Source of the DNA: an uncultured Bacteroidales bacterium
GTDB taxonomy: Bacteria; Bacteroidota; Bacteroidia; Bacteroidales; Bacteroidaceae
Length of the DNA stretch: 52,168 nt
Assembly (NCBI GenBank): GCA_902782245.1
Contig: CACZMI010000037.1
Span: 1-52,168 of the forward strand
Direction of reading: 5' to 3'
The notes under the pieces were generated by a model. That model saw only the letters and a list, made by a program, of their open reading frames with translations, was not told the origin of the DNA and did not search any database. The translations under genes and the position numbers were made by a program. Of the stretch, positions 4,124 to 30,843 are shown piece after piece. Positions within the stretch are counted from its first letter, which is position 1. Each line of letters begins with the position of its first letter.

Positions 4124-5320
4124 TTACAATATCTTCTTTATTCTCTCCATTGCCTCTATGGTACGCTGTCGGTCTGCAAACGATGTTATGCGGAACCAAC
4201 CTTCGCCGGCCGGGCCGAAACCCGATCCCGGGGTAACCACTACCCCTGCTTCGGCAAGCAGCCTGTCAAAGAACTCCCACGAACTTATGCCGCCCGGAGT
4301 CTGTGCCCAGATATAGGGAGCGTTCTCGCCGCCCAGGGCTTTCAGGCCTGCCTCATTAAGGCTCTGACGAATTATGCGTGCCGTTTCAAGGTAATAATCT
4401 ATTGTGGAACGTATCTGTTTCTGACCCTCGGAGGTATACACAGCCAGCGCTCCGCACTGTGATATGTAAGAGGCACCGTTGAACTTGCAACTCTGCCTGC
4501 GCTCCCACATTCCGTTCAGTGCAATCTTTCCGCCGTTACCGTCACTTACCTCAAGCTCACGTGGCACTACCGTATAACCGCATCGTACACCAGTGAATCC
4601 CGCTGTCTTTGAAAAACTGCGGAACTCAATTGCGCACTTCTTGGCTCCCTCAATCTCGTAGATTGAATGGGGAATTAGGGGATCACGGATGAATGCTTCA
4701 TAAGCGGAGTCGTACATAATCAGAGAACCGTTCTCCAAGGCATAATCGACCCACTTCTTGAGCTTACTGCGGGTAATAACTGCACCCGTCGGATTATTCG
4801 GGTAGCAAAGGTACACAATATCCAGTTTTTCTGTAGGGATATCGCCCGTAAATCCGTTCTCTTCATTGCAAATTATGTATTTGATATTGAAACCGCGCAT
4901 CAGGTTGGTATCAACATACACAGGATATACAGGATCGGTAATACCGACAAGGTTATCGGACGACAGTATATCACCTATGTTTCCGGTATCGCTCTTGGCA
5001 CCGTCATTGATAAAAATGTCATCGGCCGAGAGTTCTACGCCAAGGGGTGCATAATCACCTTTTACTATAGCCTCACGCAGCCACTGGTAACCGCGCTCGG
5101 GACCGTAGCCGTGGAATGTGGACTTGTCGGCACACTCGTCGACAGCCTTGTGCATGGCGTCAATCACTGCGGGAGCTAGCGGACGTGTAACGTCGCCTAT
5201 ACCCATGCGGATGATGTCTGCCTCGGGGTGTTTCTCACTGTAAGCCGCTACCCTCTTGGCAATGTCAAGAAAGAGGTACCTCTGCGGCAGTTTTGAAAAG
5301 TTCAGATTAGCTTTAACCAT
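4124..5320 (-). CDS. dapL: LL-diaminopimelate aminotransferase
   Basis: PLP enzyme of the short lysine/meso-diaminopimelate route, converting tetrahydrodipicolinate to LL-DAP with glutamate as amino donor, in the cytoplasm. The 398-residue length suits the family. Visible features are the PNNPTG motif near 174-179, YDSAYEAF near 203-210, and the PLP lysine Lys238 in [10 protein letters not shown]. Its ATG shares one base with the dapF stop (TAATG at 5318-5322), so translation is probably coupled. It acts just before DapF in the pathway, and its glutamate requirement fits a position inside a GOGAT operon. Confidence 0.96.
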
Positions 5321-6156
5321 TATTCTGTAACTGTTCCGTCAAATACAAATTCTGCGGCACCGGTCATCAGGACCTCCTTGGTATCAGGATTCCACTGGAC
5401 CGTAAGCGTACCGCCGTCCATTATCACATCACAACCGTCAGCATCAGTATATCCCTGCATGGCCGATGCCACCGCCGTAGCGCATGCGCCGGTACCGCAG
5501 GCAAAGGTGATGCCGCTGCCGCGCTCCCATACACGCATACGTATATGTTTACGGTCCAGGACCTGTGCAAACTCAATGTTGGCACGGTCCGGGAACATAC
5601 TGTGGTGTTCCATAAACGGCCCCACCTCATCAACACGGGCCTTCTCTGCATCCGTCACGAACATAACCAGATGCGGATTGCCCATATCTATGGCGGAGCA
5701 TACGGTAGGTCCTTCACCCACATTGAGGGTCTCGCCTACCAACGTGCCTGAACCGTGATTCACCTTGAGCGGCAGTCCCTGGCCCATGTTGACGGTAACG
5801 GTATCAACCGTTCCGTCCTTGGCCAGATGCAGTTTGAGTATCTTGATACCTGAAAGGGTCTCAAGCCTGATCTCGGTCTTATCGGTCAAACCCTTGTCAT
5901 GAAGGTATTTACCGACACAGCGCGCACCGTTTCCGCACATGCGTGCCTCAGAGCCGTCAGCATTGAAAATGCGCATGCTGAAATCGGCAATGGCTGACTT
6001 ACCGATCATGATAAGTCCGTCTGAGCCGATGCCCTTACGGCGGTCACTCCAGCGTATGGAGAACTGCTCGGGATTGCTTATGGGACACTCCATGACATTG
6101 ACATAGATATAGTCATTGCCAAGGCCCTGCATCTTTGTGAAACGGATCACGCCCAT
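5320..6156 (-). CDS. dapF: Diaminopimelate epimerase
   Basis: Interconverts LL- and meso-diaminopimelate for peptidoglycan and lysine. The start chosen is the ATG at 6156 (278 residues, beginning [11 protein letters not shown]), which leaves a 1-nt gap to the gltD stop. A start nine codons upstream would overlap gltD by 26 nt and add a non-conserved extension (MTHTLRTND). The two catalytic cysteines are seen in MCGNGARC (Cys74) and FACGTGACA (Cys220). Gene order dapF-dapL places the two consecutive LL-DAP steps together between the GOGAT genes and carAB. Confidence 0.95.
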
Positions 6157-6157
6157 A

Positions 6158-7504
6158 TCATTTGTTCTTAAGGTATGCGTCAACCTGTGCGGCCACCTCG
6201 CGTCCGCTTGCCAGAGCCCTTACAACCAGGCTGGCACCGTTCTTGGCATCACCTGCCAGGAACACGTTCTCAGCGTACTGAGGATGCTCGGGCTTAAGGA
6301 ATCCCATAGCCAGCAGCACCATATCGCAATCAATTATCTCCTTGTTGCCTGTAGGTTTCATCTGGGGACGGCCGCCGTTAGGATCCGGTACCCACTCCAC
6401 AGTCTCAACCTCAACGCCCTTAAGATTGCCCTTGCCGTCATCCAGGAACTTGTTGGATGTAAGGCACCAGCGGCGCTCGCAACCCTCCTCATGACTGGTT
6501 GTGGTCTTAAGGATGTTGGGCCACTGCGGCCACGGTGTTGCGGGGTTGTAACCAACTGGAGGCTTGGGCATAATCTCAATCTGAGTAACGCTTACGGCAC
6601 CCTGACGGTGACATGTGCCGATGCAGTCGCTACCGGTATCACCGCCGCCTATCACAAGCACCTTCTTGCCCTTGGCCGATACGGTTTCATCGGCACTGAA
6701 CTCCTGTCCTGCCAGACGCAGGTTCTGCTGTGTAAGCATCTGCAGGGCAAAATATACGCCCTTGAGTTCACGTCCGGGAATCTTGAGGTCACGTGCGGTT
6801 GGAGTTCCGTTGGATATGATGTATGCGTCAAAGCCCTCGGGCAGTTTGTTTAAGTCAACGGGTGTGTTGAACTTGAACTTTATACCCTCCTGCTCCATGA
6901 TCTCCATACGGCGGTCTATCACATACTTGTCAAGTTTGAAGTTAGGTATTCCGTAACGTACCAGACCACCTGCTGAAGGCATCTTGTCAAACAGTGTCAC
7001 CTCATAACCCAGTGCGTTAAGACGTACTGAGGCACTCAGTCCTGCAGGACCTGCACCGATTACGGCAACCTTCTTACCGTTACGCTCATATGTCTTGGGC
7101 TGGATATAACCCTCGCGGAAAGCATGCTCAATGATGGAGCACTCGTTCTCGCGTATAGTTACGGGAGCATCGATGCAAAGGTTCAGCGCGCAACTCTTCT
7201 CGCACAGAGCCGGGCAGATACGGCCCGTAAACTCGGGGAAGTCATTGGTGGCTGAAAGCAGTTTGTAAGCCAGTTCCCACTTGCCTTTATAAACGGCATC
7301 CTGCCATTCCGGCTGTTTGTTGCCCAGCGGGCATGCCCAGTGGCAGAACGGTACGCCGCAGTCCATGCAGCGTGAAGCCTGCTGCTGACGGCTGCTGTCG
7401 TTCAGCGTCTGCTCCACCTCACTGAAATCAGCTATTCTCTCATGTATCGGCCTATGACCGGCTTCCTGTCTGGGAACGGTCAGAAAAGCTCTTGGATTTC
7501 CCAT
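6158..7504 (-). CDS. gltD: Glutamate synthase (NADPH) small subunit
   Basis: Electron-input subunit of GOGAT; passes electrons from NAD(P)H through FAD and iron-sulfur clusters to GltB. The 448 residues show an N-terminal double cysteine-cluster region (Cys46, 49, 54, 58 in [13 protein letters not shown] and a second set around 97-110), an FAD Rossmann motif at about 147-155 ([10 protein letters not shown]) and a second nucleotide site later ([11 protein letters not shown]). It starts 20 nt after gltB and ends 1 nt before the chosen dapF start. Confidence 0.97.
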
Positions 7505-7524: not shown

Positions 7525-10500
7525 TTAATAATCACGCTGAACATTGTCAATCTTCTGCTGCAGCGCTTTCATCCTCTCCTCCTGCAGGATACGGCGGTAC
7601 TCGATAGGAGTAACCTGTATGAATTCACCTACATACTGACTCCAGTTGTCCAGCATCTTCTTGGCCAGAGCCGAGCCGGTATATTTGTAGTGCTTCTCAA
7701 TCAATCCGCGCAACTCGTCACGACCGGCCTTGTCCTCAATAATGTCAAGCTCAATCATATCCATGTTGCAATAGTAGTCAAAGTTGTGGTTCTTGTCCCA
7801 TACATAGGCAAGACCGCCCGACATACCGGCAGCAAAGTTCCTGCCTGTAGTACCAAGCACAACCACGCGACCGCCGGTCATATACTCGCAGCAGTGGTCG
7901 CCTGCACCCTCAACTACGGCTGTGGCACCTGAGTTACGTACGGCAAAGCGCTCACCTGCACGACCGTTTATGAATATCTCACCGCTGGTGGCACCGTACA
8001 GGATGGTGTTACCTGCTATGATGTTCTCGGATGCGTCAAACTTGGATTCAGCGGGAGGGCATATGGCGATACGGCCACCGGAGAGGCCCTTGCCGACATA
8101 GTCATTGGCCTCACCTTCCAGCCTGAAGTTAACACCCTTCATAAGGAATGCGCCAAAGCTCTGTCCTGCCGATCCCTTAAAGCTTACGTTGATGGTATCA
8201 TCGGCCAGACCGTCATGTCCGTAACGGCTTGCTATCTCACCTGAAAGCATTGCGCCTGCGGCACGGTCTGTGTTGATTATATCATATGAGAGTTCAACCT
8301 TGCTGCCGCTCTCAATTGCCTTGGCGGATTCCTTTATGATCTTCTGGTCAAGCACCTGACTCAGGTCATGTATCTGATCCTTAACCTTGTAAAGGTCACC
8401 GTCAATCTTTGTAAGCAGGCGGCTGAAATCAAGGCCCTTGGTCTTATCGGTGAACTTGGCTGTATCAATCTCAATAAGGTCCGTACGGCCGATGATATCC
8501 TCAAACTTACGGAATCCCATCTGAGCCAGAAGTTCCCTTACGCCCTGAGCCATAAACATATAGTAGTTGATAAGGTACTGGCTGTGACCGCGGAACTTGG
8601 CCCTCAGAGCCGGATCCTGTGTGGCAACACCTACAGGGCAGGCGTTGGTATGGCACTTACGCATAAGCAGGCATCCCAGAACAATCAACTGGCCTGTTCC
8701 GAATCCGAACTCGCCGGCACCCAGCAGAGCCATTGAAATGACGTCACGCGGGGTCTTTAACTGACCGTCCACCTGAACCTCAATCTCACCGCGCAGACCG
8801 TTCAGAACCAGAGTCTGCTGTGTCTCGGCCAAGCCTATCTCAGGTGATATACCTGCATAACGGATTGATGATGCGGGGGATGCACCTGTACCGCCCTCGG
8901 ATCCTGATATTACAACCAGGTCAGCCTTGGCCTTGGCCACACCGGCTGCAATGGTACCTACTCCGCTCTCGGCCACCAGCTTTACGCTGATCTTGGCCTT
9001 GGGGTTGACGTTGCGCAAATCATAGATGAGCTGTGCCAGGTCCTCGATTGAGTAGATGTCGTGATGAGGAGGAGGCGAAATCAGTGAAATGCCGGGAATT
9101 GAGTTACGTGTACGGGCAATGATCTCGTTCACCTTGAATCCGGGAAGCTGACCACCCTCTCCCGGTTTTGCGCCCTGGGCCACCTTGATCTGGATTTCCT
9201 GTGCGTTGACCAGATACTCGGCAGTGACGCCGAAGCGGCCCGATGCCACCTGCTTGATGCGGCTGCTCAGTGATACGCCGTCCACGTCAGTGTGGAAACG
9301 CTCGCTGTCCTCACCGCCCTCACCGGTATTGCTGCGTGAATCCAGTGTGTTAAGGGCAATTGCGATAGCCTCGTGAGCCTCCTTGCTGATGGCACCGAAT
9401 GACATGGCGGCACCGATAAAGCGCTTAACGATATTCTCAGCCGGCTCTACCTCATCAACGGGAATCGGGTTGGTCTTGAATTTAAAGTAGTTACGCAAGA
9501 ACAGCGGCTCCTGACGGTCATCTACTATGGAGCAGAACTCCTGGAATTTCTTGTAGCTGCCCAGACGGGTAGCAAGTTGCAATGTTGAAATGGCTTCGGG
9601 TGTCCATGCATGACGTATGCCGTCCTTGCGGAATGCGTACTGGCCGATGAACGGAAGCACACCGTCGGGCTCGGCCTGGCCGAATCCCTGCTGCTGCATG
9701 CTTACGGCATCCTTGCAGATCCTGTCGAACGATATGCCTCCGATTGTGGATGAAGAGGTTCCGAAATACTTGGAAAGAACCTCCTGGCTTATACCTATAG
9801 ACTCGAATATCTTGGCACCGCGGTATGAACGTATGGTGCTGATACCCATCTTACTCAAAATCTTCTTGAGACCCTTGTCAACTGCCTTGATGTAGTTGTG
9901 CTGTGCGGTCTCATAGTCAAGTTGTATCTCACCCTTCTTGACCAGGTCATCGATGACTGCAAATGCCATATACGGGTTCACGGCACTTGCACCGTAGCCC
10001 ATGAGCAGAGCCACATGCATAACCTCACGGATCTCGCCGCTCTCAACGATCAGAGCGGTCTGGACACGTTTCTGGATCGATACCAGATAGTGGTGTATGG
10101 CGCTTACTGCAAGCAGTGAAGGAATGGCGGCGTGAGTATCGTCTATACCGCGGTCACTCAGGATGATGTAGTTGATGCCTGCGTCAACAGACTTTTCGGC
10201 TTCATGGCAAAGATTTTCAATAGCATCGGACATACCCTTGGCTCCCTTTGATTTCTCAAACAGGATGGGCAGGACCTCAGTGTTGAATCCCTTGTAACGG
10301 ATGTTGCACAGGGTATCCAGTTCAGTGTTGGTAAGTACCGGCTGCGGCAGACGTACCATCTTGCAGTGACCCTCGCTGGGAGTAAGGATATTCATGCCGA
10401 CTGCACCGATATACTCGGTAAGTGACATTACCAGTTCCTCACGTATGGGGTCTATAGGCGGGTTGGTAACCTGCGCAAACTGCTGTCGGAAATAGTTGAA

Positions 10501-11991
10501 CAGCAACTGGGGACGCTCCGACAGGGCTGCCAACTGGGTGTCGTTACCCATTGATGAAAGAGGCTCCTGAGCCGTCTGACACATGGGAACAATCACACGG
10601 TCAATATCCTCACGGGTAAAGTCAAATGCGCGCAGACGGCGTGCATAGTCCTTTACGTCATTGGGGGCCTTACGGCCGCTCTTGAGTTTGCCAAGTTCCA
10701 CACGGCCGGCGCTGAGCCACTCGCCGTAGTTGAACTCACTGGCCAACTTATCCTTTACCTCATCGTTGCGGAATATCTGTCCGTTATCGGTATCTATAAG
10801 CAGTATCTTACCGGGCTGAAGTTTGCCTTTCTCCGTGATGGTGGCGGCATCCACATGGATGCAACCGGCCTCGGATGCCATTATGAGCATGCCGTCGGAT
10901 GTGATAAGATAGCGTGAAGGGCGCAGACCGTTGCGGTCCAACATACCTCCGGCGTAACGGCCGTCGGTAAAGAGCATGGCAGCGGGTCCGTCCCACGGCT
11001 CCATGAGTATTGAATGGTACTCATAGAATGCCTTGAGCTTATCGCTTATGGGGTTTTTCTCATTGAAAGACTCAGGGATCATCATGGCCATTGCATGCGG
11101 CAGGCTCATACCTGAACGTACAAAGAACTCCAGCGCATTGTCAAACGAAGCACTGTCGCTCATATCGGGCTGTACGATAGGATGAATGTCCGATACACTG
11201 CCCAGGGCCTCCGATGACAGAACGCTCTCACGGGCCTCCATCCAGCCGCGGTTGCCGCGAATGGTGTTGATCTCGCCGTTGTGAGCCAGCATTCTGAAAG
11301 GCTGGGCCAATGACCATGTAGGGAATGTGTTGGTGCTGAATCTGGAGTGCACCATTGCAAGACCGCTGGTAAAGTTTGGACTGCTCAGGTCCGGATAGTA
11401 CTCACGGAGTTGGGTCGATGTGAGCATACCTTTATATACCATGATTCGGCTTGACAGTGACACGATGTAGAAATCGTGGTCACTTATGCGCTGTTCGGTA
11501 TGCTTGCGGATCTTGTAGAGAAGTGTGTCAAGACCTTCAGTCTGGGTGGCACCGGTCACGAATATCTGCACTGTGCAGGGCTCGGTAGCTCTTGCTGCCT
11601 CACCCAGGATATTGCTGTTTACCGGAACCTGACGCACGTTTGACAGTTCCAGACCCATCTTTGCGGTCTCCTCACGGATAATGTCAAGGTACTGTTCCTG
11701 TTTTGACTTGTCCTGCGGCAGGAATACCAGTCCTGTACCGTAGTGAAGACGCTCCGGAACGGGAATACCCTGAAGCAGAATGAACTCATGAGGTATCTGG
11801 ACCGTGATTCCGGCTCCGTCACCTGATTTGTTGTCGGCTGCCTCGGCGCCGCGGTGCTTCATGTTCTCAAGCAGCGTCAGGGCCTCATCTACAAGCTGGT
11901 GCGTCTTGTTTCCCTTCAGACTGACCATCATGCCTATTCCGCAGGCATCATGCTCGTTCTGGGGGTCATATAATCCCTGTGTCTTTTTCAT
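7525..11991 (-). CDS. gltB: Glutamate synthase large subunit
   Basis: Catalytic subunit of GOGAT, forming two glutamates from glutamine and 2-oxoglutarate. The 1488 residues match the usual ~1500. A 16-residue propeptide precedes the expected N-terminal nucleophile Cys17 (ACGIGM), so maturation by cleavage is likely. Class II amidotransferase domain (17 to about 420), central domain, FMN-binding synthase domain with the 3Fe-4S cysteines in CLLMRKCHTNACPVG, and the C-terminal Gly-rich beta-helix are present in order. It lies 91 nt downstream of glnN with a hairpin in between that may tune readthrough. Confidence 0.98.
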   Translation of the reverse strand: MKKTQGLYDPQNEHDACGIGMMVSLKGNKTHQLVDEALTLLENMKHRGAEAADNKSGDGAGITVQIPHEFILLQGIPVPERLHYGTGLVFLPQDKSKQEQYLDIIREETAKMGLELSNVRQVPVNSNILGEAARATEPCTVQIFVTGATQTEGLDTLLYKIRKHTEQRISDHDFYIVSLSSRIMVYKGMLTSTQLREYYPDLSSPNFTSGLAMVHSRFSTNTFPTWSLAQPFRMLAHNGEINTIRGNRGWMEARESVLSSEALGSVSDIHPIVQPDMSDSASFDNALEFFVRSGMSLPHAMAMMIPESFNEKNPISDKLKAFYEYHSILMEPWDGPAAMLFTDGRYAGGMLDRNGLRPSRYLITSDGMLIMASEAGCIHVDAATITEKGKLQPGKILLIDTDNGQIFRNDEVKDKLASEFNYGEWLSAGRVELGKLKSGRKAPNDVKDYARRLRAFDFTREDIDRVIVPMCQTAQEPLSSMGNDTQLAALSERPQLLFNYFRQQFAQVTNPPIDPIREELVMSLTEYIGAVGMNILTPSEGHCKMVRLPQPVLTNTELDTLCNIRYKGFNTEVLPILFEKSKGAKGMSDAIENLCHEAEKSVDAGINYIILSDRGIDDTHAAIPSLLAVSAIHHYLVSIQKRVQTALIVESGEIREVMHVALLMGYGASAVNPYMAFAVIDDLVKKGEIQLDYETAQHNYIKAVDKGLKKILSKMGISTIRSYRGAKIFESIGISQEVLSKYFGTSSSTIGGISFDRICKDAVSMQQQGFGQAEPDGVLPFIGQYAFRKDGIRHAWTPEAISTLQLATRLGSYKKFQEFCSIVDDRQEPLFLRNYFKFKTNPIPVDEVEPAENIVKRFIGAAMSFGAISKEAHEAIAIALNTLDSRSNTGEGGEDSERFHTDVDGVSLSSRIKQVASGRFGVTAEYLVNAQEIQIKVAQGAKPGEGGQLPGFKVNEIIARTRNSIPGISLISPPPHHDIYSIEDLAQLIYDLRNVNPKAKISVKLVAESGVGTIAAGVAKAKADLVVISGSEGGTGASPASSIRYAGISPEIGLAETQQTLVLNGLRGEIEVQVDGQLKTPRDVISMALLGAGEFGFGTGQLIVLGCLLMRKCHTNACPVGVATQDPALRAKFRGHSQYLINYYMFMAQGVRELLAQMGFRKFEDIIGRTDLIEIDTAKFTDKTKGLDFSRLLTKIDGDLYKVKDQIHDLSQVLDQKIIKESAKAIESGSKVELSYDIINTDRAAGAMLSGEIASRYGHDGLADDTINVSFKGSAGQSFGAFLMKGVNFRLEGEANDYVGKGLSGGRIAICPPAESKFDASENIIAGNTILYGATSGEIFINGRAGERFAVRNSGATAVVEGAGDHCCEYMTGGRVVVLGTTGRNFAAGMSGGLAYVWDKNHNFDYYCNMDMIELDIIEDKAGRDELRGLIEKHYKYTGSALAKKMLDNWSQYVGEFIQVTPIEYRRILQEERMKALQQKIDNVQRDY

Positions 11992-12082: not shown

Positions 12083-14269
12083 TCAGTTAATAAAGAGCAG
12101 CTCACGATACTTAGGCAGCGGCCACATATCGTTGTCCACAATCTCCTCAAGCTTATCAATGGTCTTGCGGAGCGGGAACAGGCTCTCTGCAATCTCATGA
12201 TATGCAAGTGCCTTCTTGTACTCGTCCTCAATGGCGTTGGCCTTCTTGCGGGCCTCAACCATTGCGTCAACCTGCTGACGCAGATCGGTAACAAGTTCCG
12301 AAATGTTGGTAACCAGACCCATGCTTACGCCTGCCATAGCCGAGTAGTTATCGGCAAACACCTCCTTCATAGCGGTGATGTTCTTGAGCAGTTTGGTCTG
12401 ATATGCAAGTGCAGCGGGAATGATATGGTTGATTGCCATACGGCCAATCACGCGGCCCTCAATCTGTACTTTCTTGGTATATGTCTCCCACTTGACCTCG
12501 TTGCGGGCCTCAAGTTCCTTCTCTGAGTAAACACCCAGCTTGGTAAAGAGGTCGATAGCCTTCTTGGTAGTGAATGACTTGAACATCTTGGGAACGTTGG
12601 TCTCAACATCCAGACCGCGTTTCTTAGCCTCCTTCTTCCACTCATCGGTATAACCGTTGCCGTCAAAGCAGACAACATCGATTATGCTCTTGATGATAGG
12701 CTTAAGGGTATCCATGATTGCTATGTTCATGGGCTTTCCGGCCTTCATTGCCTTATCCACATCCTTTTTGAATGCTATGAGCTGCTCGGCAACGGCTGCA
12801 TTCAGGGTTGTCATGGCACCTGCGCAGTTGGCGCTTGAACCTACGGCACGGAACTCAAAACGGTTACCCGTGAATGCGAACGGTGATGTACGGTTGCGGT
12901 CGGTGTTATCCACGAATATCTCAGGTATCTCAACCAGACCCAGTGACTTGCCCTTCTTGCCGGCAATCTCAATGGGAGTATCGGACGGAACCTCAAGCAG
13001 TTTCCTCAGGACTGATGTCATGGTCTTGCCAAGGAATGCCGATACTATTGCGGGAGGTGCCTCGTTGGCGCCCAGACGATGTGCGTTGGTGGCGGTTGCG
13101 ATAGATGCTTTGAGCAGGTCATTGTGCTTCTGTACTGCAGCCAGAACGTTTACAAAGAATGTAACGAACTGCAGGTTACCCATGGCATCCTTACCGGGAG
13201 CCAGAAGCAGTGTGCCGGTATCTGTACCCAATGACCAGTTGTTGTGCTTACCTGATCCGTTGATGCCGTCAAAAGGCTTCTCATGGAACAGAACCACGAA
13301 CCCGTGCTTGCGGGCAATGCTGTTCATCACGTTCATCATCTGCTGGTTCTGGTCGTTTGAAAGGTTGGTCTCACCGTATATGGGAGCCAGCTCAAACTGG
13401 TTGGGAGCGACCTCGTTGTGACGGGTCTTAAGCGGAATACCCAGCTTGTAACCTGCTATCTCTATATCGCGCATGAAAGCTGCCACACGTGAAGGAATGG
13501 CACCAAAGTAGTGGTCATCCAGCTGCTGGTTCTTGGATGATGCATGACCCATCAGCGTACGGCCAGTAAGCATCAGGTCGGGACGTGCGGCGTAGAGGTC
13601 CTCATCGACCAGGAAATACTCCTGCTCCCAGCCCAGGTAGGACATAACCTTGTTTACCTTGGGATCAAACATGCGGCAGATAGGCAGGGCTGCGTCGTTG
13701 ACAGCCTTAAGAGCCTTCTTGAGCGGTGTCTTGTAGTCAAGAGCCTCGCCGGTATATGATATGAATACGGTAGGTATGCAGAGTGTGTCATCCTGTATGA
13801 ACACAGGTGATGTGGGATCCCATGCTGTATAGCCACGAGCCTCGAATGTGGCACGGATACCGCCGCTGGGGAATGATGATGCATCGGGTTCCTGCTGAAC
13901 GAGTGCCTTGCCGTCAAAAGTCTCAATCATTCCGCCCTTGCCGTCATACTCCATGAATGAGTCGTGTTTTTCGGCAGTACCGTCGGTAAGAGGCTGGAAC
14001 CAGTGAGTAATGTGTGTAACGCCATGCTCAAGGGCCCATGTCTTCATACCTGCGGCAACGCCGTCGGCAGTCTCGCGATCCAGATGAGCACCGTTGTCGA
14101 TGCAGTTAACCAGAGCATTGAAAGTCTTGGCATCAAGATACTTGTGCATCTTGTCACGGTTGAATACCAACTCTCCGAAATATTCGGAAATCTTTCCTGC
14201 AGGTGTCTCCACAGCAGCTGCCTTCTTCTTGAAAGCATCCTGCACCACATCAAATCTAAGTTTACTCAT
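12083..14269 (-). CDS. glnN: Glutamine synthetase type III
   Basis: ATP-dependent amidation of glutamate with ammonium. The 728-residue length and N-terminus (MSKLRFDVVQDAFKKKAAAV) are those of the large GSIII family typical of Bacteroidota and cyanobacteria, not the ~470-residue GSI. The GS catalytic block is recognisable in the middle (for example EVAPNQFELAPIY and NGSGKHNNWSLG). It stands as its own unit between asnB and gltB with a promoter flanked by an inverted repeat at 14301-14348 and no leader peptide, unlike asnB and glnK. Confidence 0.97.
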   Translation of the reverse strand: MSKLRFDVVQDAFKKKAAAVETPAGKISEYFGELVFNRDKMHKYLDAKTFNALVNCIDNGAHLDRETADGVAAGMKTWALEHGVTHITHWFQPLTDGTAEKHDSFMEYDGKGGMIETFDGKALVQQEPDASSFPSGGIRATFEARGYTAWDPTSPVFIQDDTLCIPTVFISYTGEALDYKTPLKKALKAVNDAALPICRMFDPKVNKVMSYLGWEQEYFLVDEDLYAARPDLMLTGRTLMGHASSKNQQLDDHYFGAIPSRVAAFMRDIEIAGYKLGIPLKTRHNEVAPNQFELAPIYGETNLSNDQNQQMMNVMNSIARKHGFVVLFHEKPFDGINGSGKHNNWSLGTDTGTLLLAPGKDAMGNLQFVTFFVNVLAAVQKHNDLLKASIATATNAHRLGANEAPPAIVSAFLGKTMTSVLRKLLEVPSDTPIEIAGKKGKSLGLVEIPEIFVDNTDRNRTSPFAFTGNRFEFRAVGSSANCAGAMTTLNAAVAEQLIAFKKDVDKAMKAGKPMNIAIMDTLKPIIKSIIDVVCFDGNGYTDEWKKEAKKRGLDVETNVPKMFKSFTTKKAIDLFTKLGVYSEKELEARNEVKWETYTKKVQIEGRVIGRMAINHIIPAALAYQTKLLKNITAMKEVFADNYSAMAGVSMGLVTNISELVTDLRQQVDAMVEARKKANAIEDEYKKALAYHEIAESLFPLRKTIDKLEEIVDNDMWPLPKYRELLFIN

Positions 14270-14418: not shown

Positions 14419-16035
14419 TTATTTATAGGCATTTTCATGCACACCCTTTACCGCACGTCCGCTGGGATCGTTCAGTTTACTGAAACTTGCATCCCATTTG
14501 AGTGCCTCGGCAGTAGAGCAGGCAACACTTGGAACACTGGGTACGCAACGTGCGGCAGACTCACTTGGAAAATGCTCCTCAAATATTGAGCGGTAGTAAT
14601 ATTCCTCCTTGTTCATGGGAGTGTTGATTGGGAAACGCTCTGCCGCATGGGCCATCTGCTCATCACTTACGGCGGCCGATGTTATCTCCTTCAGAGAGTC
14701 GATCCAGCTGTAACCCACTCCGTCGCTGAACTGCTCTTTCTGGCGCCATGCAACGCTCTTCAGACGCATTGCCACATCCAGGAACTCCTTGTCCAGGAAA
14801 GGTACGCGGCCCTCAACACCCCATGCTGCAAGTGACTTGTTTGCACGCAGGCAGTCATAAAGGTGCAGTTTGGAAATCTTACGCACGGTCTCCTCATGGA
14901 ATGCCTGTGCATCGGGCGCCTTGTGGAAATAGAGATAACCTCCGAATACCTCATCGGCCCCCTCGCCGCTCAGCACCATCTTGATACCCATGCTGCGGAT
15001 TACGCGGGCAAGCAGGTACATGGGAGTGCTGGCACGTACCGTGGTAACATCATATGTCTCAATGAAATAGATTACGTCTCTTATAGCATCCAGACCCTCC
15101 TGGACGGTGTAGTTGATTTCATGGTGTACGGTACCTATATGCTCGGCCACCTCACGGGCCTTGGCCAGATCCGGAGCACCCTTAAGGCCCACAGCAAACG
15201 AGTGCAGACGGGGCCACCAGGCCTCCTGCTGGTCATCGGTCTCAACACGGCGTGCGGCGTTTTTCTTGGCAATGGCCGATATCACCGAACTGTCCAGACC
15301 GCCGGACAGAAGCACTCCGTAAGGAACATCGCACATGAGCTGACGCTTTACTGCAGCCTCAAGGGCATCGTGAAGTTCCTTTATATCGGCCTTGTTATCC
15401 TTGACGGCATCATACTTGAACCAGTCACGGGTGTACCAGCGCTCCACCATTCCGGTGCGGCTGCTCAGGAAATGGCCCGGCAGGAACGGCTCGTACTCAG
15501 TGCAGATGCCCTCAAGAGCCTTCAGTTCACTGGCTACGCAAATGTGACCTTCCTTATCCTTACCGATATAGAGTGGAATAACGCCTATGGGATCGCGGGC
15601 AATCAGGTATTCATCACGCTCTGCATCGTACAGAGCAAATGCAAAGATGCCGTTCAGACGCTCCAGCATACGGATAAAATCCTCCTGGCTGCCTCCGGCA
15701 CGCACAGCATCACGATAAAGCGCCAAGATAACCTCGCAGTCACTGCCGGTACTGAACGTGTATCGGCCCTCATACTCACGACGTATTGCCTGATGGTTGT
15801 ATATCTCACCGTTTACGGCCAGCACCTGCAGACGATCCTCGCTGAAAAGGGGCTGACCGCCCGACTGAGGGTCCACAATACTCAGACGCTCGTGAGCCAG
15901 TATGGCAGAGCCTCCACACCAGATTCCGCTCCAGTCCGGACCGCGGTGACGAATCCTGCGACTCATTTCCAATGCCTGCTGTCGGAGCTGCTCTGACTGC
16001 TGCTTAATCCTGAAAATTGAAACTATTCCACACAT
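14419..16035 (-). CDS. asnB: Glutamine-hydrolysing asparagine synthase (AsnB type)
   Basis: Converts aspartate to asparagine using glutamine and ATP. The 538-residue protein starts MCGIVSIF with catalytic Cys2 of a class II amidotransferase domain (1 to about 200), followed by the PPi-loop motif SGGLDSS at 244-250 and the synthetase domain (ERYRSIF-type C-terminal region present). The gene follows an Asn/Gln-rich leader peptide and hairpin, so it is likely controlled by attenuation. It is followed by 149 nt without a hairpin before glnN, which has its own promoter. Confidence 0.96.
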   Translation of the reverse strand: MCGIVSIFRIKQQSEQLRQQALEMSRRIRHRGPDWSGIWCGGSAILAHERLSIVDPQSGGQPLFSEDRLQVLAVNGEIYNHQAIRREYEGRYTFSTGSDCEVILALYRDAVRAGGSQEDFIRMLERLNGIFAFALYDAERDEYLIARDPIGVIPLYIGKDKEGHICVASELKALEGICTEYEPFLPGHFLSSRTGMVERWYTRDWFKYDAVKDNKADIKELHDALEAAVKRQLMCDVPYGVLLSGGLDSSVISAIAKKNAARRVETDDQQEAWWPRLHSFAVGLKGAPDLAKAREVAEHIGTVHHEINYTVQEGLDAIRDVIYFIETYDVTTVRASTPMYLLARVIRSMGIKMVLSGEGADEVFGGYLYFHKAPDAQAFHEETVRKISKLHLYDCLRANKSLAAWGVEGRVPFLDKEFLDVAMRLKSVAWRQKEQFSDGVGYSWIDSLKEITSAAVSDEQMAHAAERFPINTPMNKEEYYYRSIFEEHFPSESAARCVPSVPSVACSTAEALKWDASFSKLNDPSGRAVKGVHENAYK

Positions 16036-16079: not shown

Positions 16080-16112
16080 AAAAAAAAGACTGATCAAATT
16101 GACCAGTCTTTT
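16080..16112 (-). terminator. asnB attenuator terminator with competing antiterminator
   Basis: On the minus strand a 13-bp stem (AAAAGACTGGTCA with TGATCAGTCTTTT, one G-U pair, 3-nt loop) ends in a run of eight T, only some 45 nt before the asnB ATG. The 5' arm segment CTGGTCAA (16106-16099) can instead pair with TTGGCCAG (16161-16154) in codons 32-34 of the leader peptide: eight pairs with one G-U. Ribosome position on the leader would decide which hairpin forms. Confidence 0.85.
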
Positions 16113-16141
16113 ATGTTTTGTTCTTTATATACCCTGAATGA

Positions 16142-16255
16142 TTAGCTTTCCCGCTGGCCAAAAGAAGTAACCATCCGAACCTGATTATTATTCTGGTTCT
16201 GATTCTGCTGGTTATTCTGATTATTATTGGCGGTGTATGCCAAAATTCTAGCCAT
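16142..16255 (-). CDS. Asn/Gln-rich leader peptide of asnB (37 aa)
   Basis: A 37-codon ORF with ATG at 16255 and TAA at 16144-16142. Residues 10-25 are only Asn and Gln (ten Asn, six Gln; NNNQNNQQNQNQNNNQ), followed by VRMVTSFGQRES. It ends about 30 nt before the terminator. The last Asn/Gln codon of the run is six codons upstream of the antiterminator segment, so a ribosome waiting there would leave that segment free, whereas one at the stop codon would cover it. This is the layout of amino-acid biosynthetic leader peptides. It is not in long-ORF range and would be missed by standard gene callers. Function is inferred from structure and position; the near-identical glnK leader supports it. 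Confidence 0.85.
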   Translation of the reverse strand: MARILAYTANNNQNNQQNQNQNNNQVRMVTSFGQRES

Positions 16256-16282
16256 TGATCTTGTTTTTGCTAATTACGAATG

Positions 16283-16313
16283 CAAAATTACACACTCTAT
16301 TTTAAACAGCCAA
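16283..16313 (-). promoter_or_regulatory. Promoter of the asnB leader transcript
   Basis: Minus strand TTG (16313-16311), 20-nt spacer, TAATTTTG (16290-16283): the Bacteroidota sigma-ABfr form. Predicted start near 16275, about 20 nt before the leader ATG. The rest of the 16036-16426 gap holds the leader, its terminator and AT-rich sequence after glsB. Confidence 0.75.
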
Positions 16314-18330: not shown

Positions 18331-19023
18331 TCAGAACGATATGCCCACGGTAAGATAACTCATCTCTGAACACGGGTTAACTGTCAGTCCGGCCGATAAA
18401 GGCAAACTGAAACTCTCTGTTATCTCCAGTTCTTTTGAAGCTGTCAGTGATATGTTGGTTACTGCAAAGCCTTCGGTCCCATAGAGCGGGCTTTCAAAGG
18501 GGACAAATCCCAATGCTGCAGTCCATTCCGCACCACCCAGACTGAAAGGTGCAGCCAGTTCACAATAGGAACTGAAAGCGCTGCTTCCATCGGCCTTTAG
18601 GTCATTGCCTGCAAAGTTTGTATACCAGCTTATTGATGCAAACCCCAAGTCATAACCTGCAAATGCCTCAAACACATGGTTTGTGCTTTCCTTTGCATAC
18701 TTGAAATAACGTCCGTAAGGCTCCGGTCCAACATTGAACCAATAATCGGTAACTCCAACGCTCAATCCGGCAACACTGTAACTGAGAGTGATATCAAACT
18801 CTTTTGTATCGGTCCAGTTGACTATTCCGGTGCTCCCCCATAGTGACAGGTCAAAACCGGCTGCACTTACGCCAAGTGTGGGTTGTATGGCAGCCTCACC
18901 AAGATCACATCCACGCCATATATATCGGCTTACGATATCGGCGCCAACTGTTGTTTCAATCTCTGCGTGCAACGGGCAGACCGCTGCTATCATAATTATT
19001 GCTATTGAGAAAATCTTTTTCAT
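18331..19023 (-). CDS. Outer-membrane porin-like protein of the AmtB operon
   Basis: The start at 19023 gives 230 residues beginning with a clear signal peptide (MKKIFSIAIIMIAAVCPLHA); an upstream start would put 20 unrelated residues in front of it. The mature part begins with VGADIVSRYIWRG, the signature of the TorF/Gcw_chp putative porin family, and alternates in beta-strand fashion to a terminal aromatic (VGISF), as expected for an outer-membrane barrel. It lies downstream of glnK-amtB on the same strand before a shared terminator, so it may let ammonium or another small nitrogen source through the outer membrane. That role is inferred from context only. Confidence 0.75.
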   Translation of the reverse strand: MKKIFSIAIIMIAAVCPLHAEIETTVGADIVSRYIWRGCDLGEAAIQPTLGVSAAGFDLSLWGSTGIVNWTDTKEFDITLSYSVAGLSVGVTDYWFNVGPEPYGRYFKYAKESTNHVFEAFAGYDLGFASISWYTNFAGNDLKADGSSAFSSYCELAAPFSLGGAEWTAALGFVPFESPLYGTEGFAVTNISLTASKELEITESFSLPLSAGLTVNPCSEMSYLTVGISF

Positions 19024-19199
19024 AGTTTTATTATTGATTATGGTTATTGATTTAATTATTAAATAATTGAAAACCGAATCCAAAGAACCGGGAATTCATT
19101 CCACCCAATCATTATGGACATAGTAAAGATTTTAAATACGAATCAAATACAGATCGAACAAACTCCGTATGTTCCGGATCCGGCTTTCAATTAAAGGAA

Positions 19200-20444
19200 T
19201 CAGATGTTGTAGGCTGTCTCTCCGTGCTCATAGATATCCAGACCCTCCTCCTCTACTCTGGGCTCAACGCGGATACCGTGAACCTTCTTGAGGATTATGA
19301 ATGTAAGCAGTCCAAGACCGAATGACCATACGCATGTTACAAGCGAGCCGAGAGCCTCAACACCCAGGAAGTGCCAGCCGCCACCGTAGAACAGGCCGCC
19401 GTCAACGGCAAACATTCCGGTCATGAGTGTACCCAGGATACCGCATACTCCGTGAACCGATACAGCACCAACGGGATCATCAATCTTGCAGATCTTATCT
19501 ATCAGGGCAACTGAACCAACCATTGCAACACCGCATACAGCACCAATGATTGCTGCACCGCCTATTGATACCAGATCGCAACCTGCCGTGATACCTACCA
19601 GACCTGCCAGGATGCCGTTGCATACCAGTGAAAGTGAAGGTTTGCCGAATACCAGCCATGTAAGGAACAGAGTTGCCAGTCCGCCTGTGGCAGCAGCCAT
19701 GTTCGTTGTGCACATTACGTGGGAGATTGCGATTGCGTTTTCAGCACCCTCGGCAGCCAGCTGTGAACCGGGGTTGAAACCAAACCAACCGAACCAGAGG
19801 ATGAACACGCCCAGAGCGCCGAATGTAAGGTTGTGACCGGGAATAGCGCGTGATTCGCCTGTCTTTGAGTATTTACCGATACGGGGACCAAGCACCATTG
19901 CACCGGCAAGAGCAATCACGCCACCGCAGGAATGAACGACTGTTGAACCGGCAAAATCATGAAAGCCAAGCTCGCTCAGCCAGCCGCCGCCCCATGTCCA
20001 GTGGCCCTCAATGGGATAGATAACCACTGAAATAATGATTGATATCAGAATATACATGGAGAACTTGGTCCTCTCGGCCATACCGCCCGATACTATAGTA
20101 GCGGCAGTGGCACAAAATACTGTCTGAAATATCAGAGTACACTCGGCAGGAACATTTGAGTCACCAATGAATGACCAGTCAAACAGATGCAGGCCACCTA
20201 TAAAACCGTTGTTGGCTCCATGCATCAAACCAAAACCTATCATCCAGAAAAGGAAGGATCCCACCATGAAATCCACAAAGTTTTTCATGAGTATGTTGGC
20301 AGTGTTCTTGGAACGGGTAAAGCCTGCCTCCACCAGCGCGAAACCGGGCTGCATAAAGAACACCAGCATTGCTGCTATCAATACCCAGACTGTGTCCAGT
20401 CCGCTTATGCTACTCTCACTTACTGTTGTAATAATGTCTTCCAT
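19200..20444 (-). CDS. amtB: Ammonium transporter
   Basis: Inner-membrane ammonium channel of the Amt/MEP/Rh family, 414 residues with about 11 hydrophobic spans. The twin-histidine pore residues are recognisable in STVVHSCGG and VSVHGVCG, and the family motif FMQPGFALVEAGFTR is near the N-terminus. It lacks a long signal peptide and starts with a short periplasmic segment. It begins 21 nt after glnK, and the pair shares the leader-peptide control region upstream. Confidence 0.97.
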   Translation of the reverse strand: MEDIITTVSESSISGLDTVWVLIAAMLVFFMQPGFALVEAGFTRSKNTANILMKNFVDFMVGSFLFWMIGFGLMHGANNGFIGGLHLFDWSFIGDSNVPAECTLIFQTVFCATAATIVSGGMAERTKFSMYILISIIISVVIYPIEGHWTWGGGWLSELGFHDFAGSTVVHSCGGVIALAGAMVLGPRIGKYSKTGESRAIPGHNLTFGALGVFILWFGWFGFNPGSQLAAEGAENAIAISHVMCTTNMAAATGGLATLFLTWLVFGKPSLSLVCNGILAGLVGITAGCDLVSIGGAAIIGAVCGVAMVGSVALIDKICKIDDPVGAVSVHGVCGILGTLMTGMFAVDGGLFYGGGWHFLGVEALGSLVTCVWSFGLGLLTFIILKKVHGIRVEPRVEEEGLDIYEHGETAYNI

Positions 20445-20465: not shown

Positions 20466-20813
20466 TTACTTTTTGTCGGCCAGAACCGTATCACCGTGTT
20501 CTCCGGTACGAATTGACCATGTGTCATCTACAGGGCTTACGAATATTCGGCCATCACCCACCTGACCGGTGCGGGCTGCTCCCATGATGGCATCGATGGC
20601 AGGCTGTACAAACTGATCACGGCAGATAATTGTTATCTCAATACGCGAAATGATATCAGTGCTGTACATCACACCACGGTAGATACGATCCTGACGGGCC
20701 TGACCGATAGCATGAACCTCTGCGTAAGAGAACCAGTTGATGTCGGCCTCAAAGAGCGCCTCCTTCACATCTTCAAACCGGGTTTTCCGGATGATTGCTT
20801 CAATCTTTTTCAT
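20466..20813 (-). CDS. glnK: PII nitrogen regulatory protein
   Basis: PII-family sensor of energy and 2-oxoglutarate that blocks AmtB when nitrogen is plentiful. The 115 residues start MKKIEAIIRKTRFEDVKEAL, keep the T-loop with Tyr50 (RGVMYS), and carry TGQVGDGRIFV and RIRTGE-like motifs (SIRTGEHG). First gene of the glnK-amtB-porin operon, preceded by an Asn/Gln-rich leader peptide and terminator. The T-loop sequence (AIGQARQDRIYRG) departs from proteobacterial GlnK, as often in Bacteroidota. Confidence 0.95.
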   Translation of the reverse strand: MKKIEAIIRKTRFEDVKEALFEADINWFSYAEVHAIGQARQDRIYRGVMYSTDIISRIEITIICRDQFVQPAIDAIMGAARTGQVGDGRIFVSPVDDTWSIRTGEHGDTVLADKK

Positions 20814-20861: not shown

Positions 20862-20892
20862 AAAAAAAGGCCGGTCTAAAAAGACCAGCCTT
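20862..20892 (-). terminator. glnK-amtB attenuator terminator with competing antiterminator
   Basis: Minus-strand 11-bp stem (AAGGCTGGTCT with AGACCGGCCTT, one G-U pair, T4 loop) followed by a T-rich tract, about 50 nt before glnK. GACCGGTC in leader codons 36-38 (20939-20932) can pair with GGCTGGTC of the 5' arm (20890-20883): eight pairs, two of them G-U. This matches the arrangement at asnB. Confidence 0.85.
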
Positions 20893-20921: not shown

Positions 20922-21044
20922 TTACATACCTGACCGGTCAAAAGGTATAACCATCGGAACCTGATTATTATTCTGGTTCTGATTATTCTGCTGCTGATTA
21001 TTATTCAGCTGAACAGTGGTTATATTCTTAAAACCGATAAACAT
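20922..21044 (-). CDS. Asn/Gln-rich leader peptide of glnK-amtB (40 aa)
   Basis: A 40-codon ORF from ATG at 21044 (preceded by TTTTT) to TAA at 20922. Residues 14-28 are only Asn and Gln (NNNQQQNNQNQNNNQ), followed by VPMVIPFDRSGM. From 20981 to 20948 it matches the asnB leader at 33 of 34 nucleotides, and the peptide motif QNQNNNQV-x-MV-xx-F is shared. An upstream in-frame ATG exists at 21110, but it would lie upstream of the predicted start site. Seven codons separate the last Gln from the antiterminator segment. Role as a translation sensor is inferred from layout and from the paralogous leader at asnB. Confidence 0.85.
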   Translation of the reverse strand: MFIGFKNITTVQLNNNQQQNNQNQNNNQVPMVIPFDRSGM

Positions 21045-21075: not shown

Positions 21076-21083
21076 CAAAGGTA
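21076..21083 (-). promoter_or_regulatory. -7 element of the glnK leader promoter
   Basis: TACCTTTG on the minus strand fits TAnnTTTG exactly, with a predicted start about 24 nt before the leader ATG. No TTG lies at the standard 19-21 nt distance (the nearest is 24 nt upstream), so an activator may assist. The 20814-21270 gap thus holds this promoter, the leader and attenuator, and the divergent promoter at 21212-21242. Confidence 0.6.
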
Positions 21084-25614: not shown

Positions 25615-27372
<1,758 letters not shown>

Positions 27373-28755
27373 TCAGCTTTTGTGATTGTAAAGGTTTGTC
27401 GGATAATCGCCGTTAAAGCAGGCGGTGCAGAGTTCGCATCGGCCCATATCCCTGCCCGATGCCTTGTAAAGTGATTCAAGTGAGAGATAGTACAGTGAGT
27501 CGGCGCCTATGTAGTCACGTATCTCCTCCACGGTATGGCTGGAGCCGATAAGTTCCTCGGATGTACCCGTATCGACCCCGTAATAACAGGGATATGCGTA
27601 TTTGGGACTTGCAATGCACACATGGACCTCAGTAGCCCCCGCCTCACGCAGCATACCCACAATACGGCGCGATGTGGTGCCGCGCACAATGGAATCGTCA
27701 ATAAGAATCACTCGCTTGCCGTTCACTATGCTGCGTACGGGCGACAGTTTCATACGGACGCCCTTGTCACGCATCTGCTGCGTAGGCTGAATGAACGTGC
27801 GCCCCACGTACTTGTTCTTGAGCAGACCCATCTCATACGGTATTCCGCTTGCCTCGGCATAACCCATAGCCGCACTGAGACTAGAATCGGGCACACCCAC
27901 CACGATATCTGCATCGACCGGATGCTCCTCATAGAGCAGACGGCCCGACAGTTTACGGAACGAGTGCACGTTACAGCCCTCAATGTCGCTGTCAGGACGA
28001 GCAAAATAGATATACTCCATCACACACATACGGTGGCTGCGGAGTTTTGAATAGTCATTGGAACGGATTCCGTGATGGTCTATGGTTATTATCTCACCCG
28101 GATTGACATCACGTATGAACTCTGCGCCTATGGCGTCGAATGCGCAGGTTTCGCTGGCCACGACATACCCTTCGCCCAGTTTTGCTATCGAGAGCGGATG
28201 GAATCCGTACTTGTCGCGGCAAGCATAAATGCGGTTTGGAGTCATTATGACCAGTGAGAATGCGCCCTCAATCATGTTCAGGGCATTGATAAGGTTTATT
28301 ATGCGGTCCTCCTCGGTGGGATCCTTCTTGATAAGATGCGCAAACAGCTCGCTGTCCGATGTGGTCTGCAGCAGACTGCCGCGGCGCTCCAGATACATGC
28401 GCAACTCATGGGAGTTGATGATGTTTCCGTTATGGGCAATGGCAAAATTCCCGGTATAATGATGGAACGTGAACGGCTGTATGTTCTCCAGACCGCCCAC
28501 ATTGGTAGTGGGATAACGCACATGACCAATGGCAATGTTGCCGGTCAGTTCGTCCAGGTTCTTCTCGCCGAAAATCTCTATCACCAGACCGGCACCCTTG
28601 TGAAGATGGAACTGTCCCTGATCATCGGCCGATACAATTCCGCACCCCTGCTGACCGCGGTGCTGCAGGCTGTGAAGGGCATAATAGGCATACTGTGCGG
28701 CGTTCTCCACGCCGTAAATGCCAAACACTCCGCATTCGTGATGTATTTCTTCCAT
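27373..28755 (-). CDS. purF: Amidophosphoribosyltransferase
   Basis: First step of purine synthesis: PRPP plus glutamine to phosphoribosylamine. The start at 28755 gives 460 residues beginning MEEIHHECGVFG, a short propeptide before nucleophile Cys8. A longer open frame extends 51 codons upstream but runs into glmS and has no family similarity. The PRPP loop VILIDDSIVRGTTSR and the late cysteines (CELCTAC) suggest the Bacillus-type iron-sulfur enzyme. It lies 10 nt after glmS and 3 nt before pyrG, so three glutamine amidotransferases are in one operon under one leader peptide. Confidence 0.96.
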   Translation of the reverse strand: MEEIHHECGVFGIYGVENAAQYAYYALHSLQHRGQQGCGIVSADDQGQFHLHKGAGLVIEIFGEKNLDELTGNIAIGHVRYPTTNVGGLENIQPFTFHHYTGNFAIAHNGNIINSHELRMYLERRGSLLQTTSDSELFAHLIKKDPTEEDRIINLINALNMIEGAFSLVIMTPNRIYACRDKYGFHPLSIAKLGEGYVVASETCAFDAIGAEFIRDVNPGEIITIDHHGIRSNDYSKLRSHRMCVMEYIYFARPDSDIEGCNVHSFRKLSGRLLYEEHPVDADIVVGVPDSSLSAAMGYAEASGIPYEMGLLKNKYVGRTFIQPTQQMRDKGVRMKLSPVRSIVNGKRVILIDDSIVRGTTSRRIVGMLREAGATEVHVCIASPKYAYPCYYGVDTGTSEELIGSSHTVEEIRDYIGADSLYYLSLESLYKASGRDMGRCELCTACFNGDYPTNLYNHKS

Positions 28756-30629: not shown

Positions 30630-30662
30630 GTGAAGGCTGATTCTAACTGAACCAGCCTTCAC
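30630..30662 (-). terminator. glmS leader hairpin (candidate attenuator, poor T tract)
   Basis: Minus-strand 13-bp stem (GTGAAGGCTGGTT with AATCAGCCTTCAC, one G-U pair, 7-nt loop), ending 19 nt before the glmS ATG. It is followed by CCCTTTATTG, not a solid T run, so it may terminate weakly or act by blocking translation initiation. ACCAGTC in leader codons 28-30 (30713-30707) can pair with GGCTGGT (30657-30651) of the 5' arm, seven pairs with one G-U, as at asnB and glnK. Confidence 0.7.
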
Positions 30663-30696: not shown

Positions 30697-30795
30697 TCAT
30701 ATTATCCGACTGGTGAAACAACACGTATTATTATTCAGATTCTGCTTGTCATTCATCTGATTTGACAGACAGTTATATGTAACTTTTCCCTCCAT
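30697..30795 (-). CDS. Asn-rich leader peptide of glmS-purF-pyrG (32 aa)
   Basis: A 32-codon ORF, ATG at 30795, TGA at 30699-30697, with seven Asn and two Gln, ending its rich part in three AAT codons (residues 21-23) before TCCFTSRII. It is less similar than the other two leaders but keeps the AAT-AAT-AAT block, the Phe-x-x-Arg ending and a C-terminal codon segment complementary to the hairpin arm. Four codons separate the last Asn from that segment. Very short ORFs can arise by chance, so the call rests on the repeated architecture. Confidence 0.7.
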   Translation of the reverse strand: MEGKVTYNCLSNQMNDKQNLNNNTCCFTSRII

Positions 30796-30813: not shown

Positions 30814-30843
30814 CAAAAATACGCAGAAAATTCCTATTTGCAA
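30814..30843 (-). promoter_or_regulatory. Promoter of the glmS leader transcript
   Basis: Minus strand TTG (30843-30841), 19-nt spacer, TATTTTTG (30821-30814), a very good Bacteroidota promoter. Predicted start about 10 nt before the leader ATG. Confidence 0.75.

Follow-up and report, generated by a model that had tools for sequence, protein, structure and literature searches.

Candidate asparagine/glutamine leader-peptide attenuators upstream of nitrogen and glutamine genes in an uncultured member of the Bacteroidaceae

The window analysed here, i.e. the whole stretch of 52,168 nucleotides from an uncultured Bacteroidales bacterium of the family Bacteroidaceae, contains three short open reading frames (ORFs) rich in Asn and Gln codons, located before asnB, before glnK-amtB and before glmS-purF-pyrG, all of which are nitrogen or glutamine genes (Table 1). 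The candidate targets in the window encode proteins that make glutamine or that import and sense ammonium, five glutamine amidotransferases (AsnB, GlmS, PurF, PyrG and CarA) and glutamate synthase (GOGAT), the exceptions to this nitrogen/glutamine set being the lysine genes dapF and dapL and a porin-like outer-membrane protein gene. How far control would extend past asnB is uncertain, since the 149-nt gap before glnN contains a TAATTTTG motif which may be a promoter of glnN's own.

The porin-like gene had no family match in Pfam or NCBIfam and is separated from amtB by at least 116 nt. Its relatives lie between leader and glnK at four loci (L172, L176, L244 and L245), and it is repeatedly linked to glnK-amtB in related genomes; its product may be a porin for some nitrogen source. 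The porin-like gene and the asnB leader are separated by two acyltransferase-type genes (PF13444 and PF19576, positions 16427-18174 of the minus strand), whereby the nitrogen genes of the window are split.

Table 1. Elements of the three putative attenuators and genes located behind them (positions in the window)
Feature	Position	Strand	Basis or detail
Leader peptide ORF before asnB	16142..16255	-	37 codons, MARILAYTANNNQNNQQNQNQNNNQVRMVTSFGQRES, then stop
Control-codon run, 16 consecutive Asn/Gln (codons 10-25)	16181..16228	-	in asnB leader
Putative asnB attenuator promoter	16283..16313	-	TTG 16313..16311 and TAATTTTG 16290..16283; enrichment, genus alignment
Candidate asnB antiterminator segment TTGGCCAG, leader codons 32-34	16154..16161	-	complementarity; CCRG near stop
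Predicted protector hairpin 1:2 of asnB leader	16138..16174	-	ATGGTTA 16174..16168 with TAATCAT 16144..16138, over stop codon
Predicted asnB intrinsic terminator	16080..16112	-	13-bp stem 16112..16084, loop 3, T tract of 8; 5' arm is the antiterminator partner
-7-type promoter motif of glnK attenuator, TACCTTTG	21076..21083	-	sequence
Second Asn/Gln leader, MFIGFKNITTVQLNNNQQQNNQNQNNNQVPMVIPFDRSGM, before glnK	20922..21044	-	sequence, leader model
Candidate antiterminator segment of glnK attenuator, GACCGGTC	20932..20939	-	sequence, catalogue
Predicted terminator of glnK attenuator, 11-bp stem	20867..20892	-	terminator scan
-7-type promoter motif of glmS attenuator, TATTTTTG	30814..30821	-	sequence
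Third Asn/Gln leader, MEGKVTYNCLSNQMNDKQNLNNNTCCFTSRII, before glmS	30697..30795	-	sequence, second leader model
Candidate antiterminator segment of glmS attenuator, ACCAGTC	30708..30714	-	sequence, catalogue
Predicted terminator stem of glmS attenuator, 14 pairs, weak T tract (CCTTTATT)	30630..30662	-	terminator scan
asnB, glutamine-hydrolysing asparagine synthase	14419..16035	-	protein-family match
glnN, type III glutamine synthetase	12083..14269	-	protein-family match
gltB, glutamate synthase large subunit	7525..11991	-	protein-family match
gltD, glutamate synthase small subunit	6158..7504	-	protein-family match
dapF, diaminopimelate epimerase	5320..6183	-	protein-family match
dapL, LL-diaminopimelate aminotransferase	4124..5320	-	protein-family match
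carA, glutamine-hydrolysing carbamoyl-phosphate synthase small subunit	3035..4114	-	protein-family match
glnK, PII signalling protein	20466..20813	-	protein-family match
amtB, ammonium transporter	19200..20444	-	protein-family match
Porin-like outer-membrane protein gene, 3' of amtB	18331..19083	-	"porin" is an interpretation
glmS, glutamine--fructose-6-phosphate transaminase	28766..30610	-	protein-family match
purF, amidophosphoribosyltransferase	27373..28755	-	protein-family match; start read from sequence
pyrG, glutamine-hydrolysing CTP synthase	25798..27369	-	protein-family match

The region upstream of asnB had been interpreted, in a preliminary description made from the sequence alone, as an Asn/Gln leader-peptide attenuator controlling this gene. 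Its elements were recovered at the positions listed in Table 1: a 37-codon ORF in which 16 Asn/Gln codons follow one another, a 13-bp terminator followed by a tract of eight T, and an alternative helix between leader codons 32-34 and the 5' arm of the terminator (TTGGCCAG with CTGGTCAA), in which 8 pairs are read from the sequence and 7 when the pairing is limited to the detected stem. A promoter had also been claimed, and it holds as one of the Bacteroidota type, the TAATTTTG motif fitting TAnnTTTG, which we take to be the -7 form of this phylum; a sigma-70 promoter was set aside, the best minus-strand matches nearby being only 9-of-12. The predicted hairpin 1:2 encloses the antiterminator core in its loop. 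Within the runs of the leaders, the codon pair AAC CAG provides an ACCAG that is itself able to pair with the CTGGT of the terminator.

An origin of the asnB leader as a chance low-complexity ORF was set aside, as the Asn/Gln tract is too extreme and recurs before several nitrogen genes. When the genome from which the window comes was searched with the leader-peptide model, only two sites were retrieved at E<=10, both upstream of nitrogen genes, and a second leader model added the glmS leader. The phrase "controlling asnB" is too narrow, since like elements precede glnK-amtB and glmS-purF-pyrG in the same window.

Conservation was surveyed by searching 37 genomes of the genus, many of them incomplete, for asnB and glnK. 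Lack of conservation in relatives had been named as an observation that would speak against the attenuator; instead, asnB was present with its start in 22 of the 37 genomes, the leader, with its run, terminator and competing segment, recurs upstream of 20 of these 22 genes, and leaders also precede seven other nitrogen/glutamine genes. For glnK, likewise present in 22 of the 37 genomes, a leader lies directly upstream in 21, the exception being G015. Differences in run length amount to whole codons in 18 of the 20 asnB leaders. The frame is disturbed in 2 of the 20: in L089 (genome G033) it is shifted inside the Asn/Gln run, and in L091 (G032) 16 nt fewer separate the start codon from the run than in the window leader, which places the run out of frame. 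These disturbances are either real changes or errors in the assembly of the metagenome-assembled genomes (MAGs).

The two asnB genes without a leader, in G011 and G015, both have amtB directly upstream. Gene orders were confirmed by tblastn. The row in G011 (locus L112) is glmS, pyrG, glnK, amtB, asnB, glnN and gltB, with leaders before glmS and glnK only; this is a more compact arrangement of the nitrogen genes than that of the window. In G015 (L176, L181), a leader is followed by a porin-like gene, then by glnK and amtB, and a second contig carries the end of amtB with asnB behind it. Among the 13 genus genomes lacking both asnB and glnK, at least 10 were without a leader match among the matches listed, and the match in G024 (E 0.44), which falls inside a long ORF, was rejected as a chance match. 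In G017, G022 and G024 (96-98% complete), asnB, glnK and any convincing leader are all absent, as if the nitrogen set had been lost. In G019 (L166/L175), a TAA codon splits glnK and asnB has internal stops, and both leaders are present nevertheless.

Beyond the genus, model A2 matched 26 of 399 genomes of the family at E<=0.001, model A4 matched 34 of 301 at E<=0.1, and model A3 matched 55 of 399 at E<=1, many of the weak A3 matches (E 0.01-1, inspected in part) being likely due to chance. In searches across the order, A3 retrieved from 393 genomes the genome of the window itself and one weak match (G736), and A4 retrieved two weak matches (G457 and G658) from 286 genomes. Several matches were discarded upon inspection: that in G281 has no run of at least five Asn/Gln codons, those in G299, G034:C101 and G066 showed no Asn/Gln leader, and the stretch in G134 has one ORF and no convincing stem. 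At the inspected loci, leaders with a terminator were found before glnK (genera g1, g15, g22 and g30), asnB (g1, g30), glmS (g1, g30), pyrG (g1), purF (G014, g1), glnN (g30), gltB (g22) and a porin-like gene (g22, G015). The first genes behind leaders overall are asnB, glnK, amtB, glmS, purF, pyrG, glnN, gltB and the porin-like gene; with the exception of the latter, they make, sense or consume glutamine, or import nitrogen for it. In the gltB leaders of g22 (L279-L282 and L285), Asn codons are abundant, Gln codons are few and some Lys codons occur; the amino-acid specificity of these leaders may differ.

From a named collection of genomes, 23 were chosen, of which 18 have glnK; no Asn/Gln leader was found upstream of glnK or its porin gene in any of these 18 (1.8-3.3 kb searched in each), which include Prevotella communis, Bacteroides acidifaciens, B. 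caecigallinarum, B. cellulosilyticus, Phocaeicola plebeius, Leyella lascolaii and Paraprevotella xylaniphila. An ORF located 417 nt before glnK in L321, with a terminator-like stem behind it and few Asn/Gln codons, was excluded from the count. Leaders are nevertheless present in two MAGs of this collection: those of L072 precede a distant homologue of amtB (30% identity) and glnN, and that of L058 precedes glnK-amtB-asnB; the leader model matched both leaders of L072 and nothing in the genome of L058, whose leader was found only by the script used for the catalogue described below. In the glnK loci of other genera, a leader lies directly upstream in 6 of 28 (400 nt examined, except for one locus with 143). 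Within the genomes searched, the system is confined to several genera of one family and some of their kin.

A catalogue of 61 leaders (64 before the removal of three alternative-frame ORFs) was established using a CYGGT stem and a known target as selection criteria, ORFs that lacked such a stem or had no recognised target at a distance of up to 560 nt being left out; the terminator stem is therefore no independent finding in this set. The catalogue includes L089 with its disturbed frame, L106, which is L088 in truncated copy, and the near-identical L169/L170 and L217-L219. Of the 55 leaders with enough upstream sequence, 34 have the TAnnTTTG motif in the 55 nt preceding the leader ATG, against 2.1 expected from shuffles, the leaders being interrelated. 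A CCRG motif, which was not a selection criterion, was found between -24 and +12 of the stop codon in 57 of the 61 leaders, versus 15.9 expected from dinucleotide shuffles, a count that concerns related leaders and not 61 independent cases. Relative to the ORF, this motif is found in each of the three frames (0, 1 and 2) or, in L217-L219 of g15, after the stop codon; since it occurs in all three frames or past the stop, CCRG appears to be held as RNA and not as peptide. In L217-L219, the segment ACCAGTC stands just 3' of the leader stop codon rather than inside the ORF. In an earlier set of 45 leaders (one minus-strand ORF of L072 excluded), 36 contain a best complement of the terminator arm that is superior to those in dinucleotide shuffles (p<=0.05), and in 37 the start of this complement lies 14-21 nt upstream of the last base of the stop codon. 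The core pairing is CCGG:CCGG in the purF leader and in L058, and CCAG:CTGG in most others.

Covariation of the two helices, proposed in the preliminary description as a check, supported the terminator and not the antiterminator. Alignment A6 comprises 21 of 37 asnB, glnK and purF leaders (near-duplicates, L089, L106 and farther genera omitted), and in it the glnK row of the window is off by one base at the terminator. For the terminator, 95.6% of cells are paired, 10 cells are changed on both sides versus 2.0 in shuffled alignments (0 of 500) and the covariation score is 0.191 versus 0.107, bearing in mind that kinship alone can lift the covariation of related sequences above shuffles; two of five measures were not above shuffles (doubly changed pairs, 64 of 500; pair types, 277 of 500). 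For the antiterminator helix, whose core is near-constant and tolerates G-U pairs, there was no covariation above shuffles in either of two comparisons (385 of 456 cells versus 390 shuffled; 78.6% versus 79.9%). Hairpin 1:2 is paired in 95.2% of cells over 21 leaders of the asnB/glnK group, with no excess covariation over these leaders. Its loop, containing CCRG, measures 7-10 nt in 49 of the 61 leaders, and its mean energy is -14.0, versus -10.4 for mispartnered arms; it beats dinucleotide shuffles in 17 of the 61 only, the anchor for L217-L219 having fallen inside the run in this test. In two leader classes, RNAalifold, unprompted, predicted a hairpin with CCAGYC in its loop. The order region 1, CCRG, region 2 and terminator resembles that of the trp and his leaders.

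Nascent folding was predicted for the 61 leaders, assuming a ribosome footprint extending 12 nt ahead of the A-site codon and counting all upstream pairing of the 5' arm of the terminator before its 3' arm is made. The mean pairing of the 5' arm with upstream sequence was 0.70-0.74 with the ribosome in the run and 0.30 with the ribosome at the stop codon, and 29 of the 61 leaders passed the threshold for a switch-like response. By a stricter count, limited to pairs between antiterminator and arm, the asnB leader of the window reached 0.05-0.16 expected pairs; in the predicted nascent fold of this leader with the ribosome at the first Asn/Gln codon, the run-internal ACCAG:CTGGT pairing appears. 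For the full transcripts of the three window leaders, the terminator wins at equilibrium whatever the position of the ribosome. Since the complete RNA folds to the terminator in every state, antitermination must be kinetic.

Conservation, helices and target genes all speak for the Asn/Gln leader-peptide attenuator of the preliminary description, and we consider it very probable that these elements are ribosome-mediated transcription attenuators sensing charged tRNA-Asn and tRNA-Gln; translation of the leaders, ribosome stalling, termination and the amino-acid response are what we infer from the sequences. According to this model, RNA polymerase would make a short leader in which the ribosome must read the cluster of Asn/Gln codons. 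When Asn and Gln are plentiful, the ribosome would reach the stop codon and cover the adjoining CCRG, the terminator would form and transcription would end before the structural gene. When Asn or Gln is short, uncharged tRNA would halt the ribosome in the run, region 1 just downstream would be covered or opened, and the antiterminator, left free, would pair with the 5' arm (CYGGT) before the 3' arm has been transcribed, so that the polymerase would read on. If the leader is not translated at all, hairpin 1:2 would mask the antiterminator and the terminator would form. Because Asn and Gln codons are interspersed, shortage of either amino acid should act.

An arrest of the ribosome by the nascent peptide, or a generally slow decoding of the Asn/Gln tract (translation stress), could take the place of tRNA charging with the rest of the attenuator unchanged. 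In its favour are the existence of leaders that arrest the ribosome through their peptide, the extreme character of the tract and the conserved QV that follows it in the leaders of g1; against this, the run is variable in length and order, most differences being whole codons, the peptide sequence behind it is not the same from one target class to another, and the first genes behind the leaders, the porin-like gene apart, belong to nitrogen and glutamine metabolism, all of which makes this mechanism improbable. The conservation of the leader ORFs in the genus might also be expected of genes for small proteins with a function of their own, whose transcripts the terminator would merely end or insulate. 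The peptides are alike mainly in the Asn/Gln cluster, however, and stand before eight different nitrogen/glutamine genes and a porin-like gene; moreover, at L112, where glnK-amtB-asnB-glnN-gltB form one run, asnB is leaderless and only the glnK leader stays, so that small-protein genes appear a very remote explanation.

Equally remote in our view is control of the terminator by a metabolite- or protein-binding RNA, such as a glutamine aptamer, with the short ORF being incidental. A glutamine riboswitch regulates glutamine synthetase in cyanobacteria, according to a title cited in PMC8632094; yet no match to Rfam, including its cis-regulatory families (T-box, glutamine riboswitch and others), was obtained in the window at the gathering score, and what the leaders share is Asn/Gln codons, a CCRG at the stop codon and a terminator, with no conserved aptamer core visible.

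Sensing of tRNA charging by attenuation could further be shared by the operons of a genome: several copies of the module, placed on operons that import ammonium, produce glutamine and consume glutamine, would constitute a nitrogen regulon in cis. Shortages of Asn and of Gln would both reflect the glutamine pool, since AsnB makes Asn from Gln. The induction of the glutamine consumers GlmS, PurF and PyrG by glutamine shortage needs an argument, which may be that their derepression would help to sustain amidotransferase flux. On balance we lean, with some reserve, towards a multi-operon regulon in cis in which the charging of tRNA-Gln and tRNA-Asn would be a global nitrogen signal, with no dedicated transcription factor, and in which a cassette with a fixed CCRG:CYGGT core would have spread among operons. 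If this is true, the genes under this signal are those for the import of ammonium, for GS-GOGAT, for the synthesis of asparagine and for the glutamine amidotransferases. To our knowledge, nitrogen sensing in these bacteria is poorly understood; if the proposal is correct, the charging of tRNA can act as a global signal for nitrogen, and ribosome-mediated attenuation includes Asn/Gln among the amino acids sensed and reaches beyond single operons to a coordinated set of them. The leader module is directly testable, with natural sequence variants at hand.

Ribosome-mediated attenuation is classical, and is exemplified by the trp, his, leu, phe and thr operons of enterobacteria. The leaders described here are like the enterobacterial attenuators in having a leader ORF rich in the sensed codons, a predicted protector hairpin, a predicted competition between antiterminator and terminator, and a stop codon beside the antiterminator segment. 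They differ from them in the amino acids predicted to be sensed (Asn/Gln), in the presence of several such operons in one genome, in the eight nitrogen/glutamine genes preceded by leaders across relatives, in the near-constant CCRG:CYGG antiterminator core and in the Bacteroidota promoter. T-box leaders and glutamine riboswitches are also cis-acting RNA controls of amino-acid or nitrogen genes, the T-box responding likewise to tRNA charging, and they differ in that the RNA binds the tRNA or the ligand directly, without a leader peptide; glutamine riboswitches appear among the references of PMC8632094.

No paper on an Asn/Gln leader-peptide attenuator was recognised from titles and abstracts in the open-licence PMC text. 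The mechanism is thus of a known kind, its Asn/Gln specificity and the scale of the regulon were not found in print within that text, and the novelty for Bacteroidota claimed in the preliminary description is uncontradicted there. In the same phylum, clues of leader-peptide attenuation before amino-acid biosynthesis operons have been given for Flavobacterium psychrophilum (PMC9723704), and small ORFs in long 5' UTRs, for which leader-peptide attenuation is suspected, for Bacteroides thetaiotaomicron (PMC7366714); the accessible text of the two names no Asn or Gln leader, and the word "asparagine" is absent from both main texts. The uORFC attenuation motifs are similar in that, by comparative genomics, the codons of an upstream ORF match the downstream gene (PMC8632094); unlike the window leaders, the example given has Cys codons before cysS in alphaproteobacteria, and neither "asparagine" nor words in bacteroid- occur in the main text of that paper.

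A physiological parallel is provided by Prevotella ruminicola 23, in which amtB, a membrane protein gene, glnK, asnB, glnN-2 and gltBD change 26.6- to 69.1-fold with ammonium supply, together with dapF, an aminotransferase gene and a glutamine amidotransferase gene, pyrG also changing with ammonium; the paper is internally inconsistent as to whether limiting or excess ammonium raises the expression of this set (PMC5552732). Words in attenuat- are absent from that paper, its accessible text names no transcription regulator for the response, and the genes are of the same kinds as those of the window. Since these genes respond to nitrogen in P. ruminicola 23, the target set described here forms one physiological unit in this related bacterium, irrespective of how it is regulated there.
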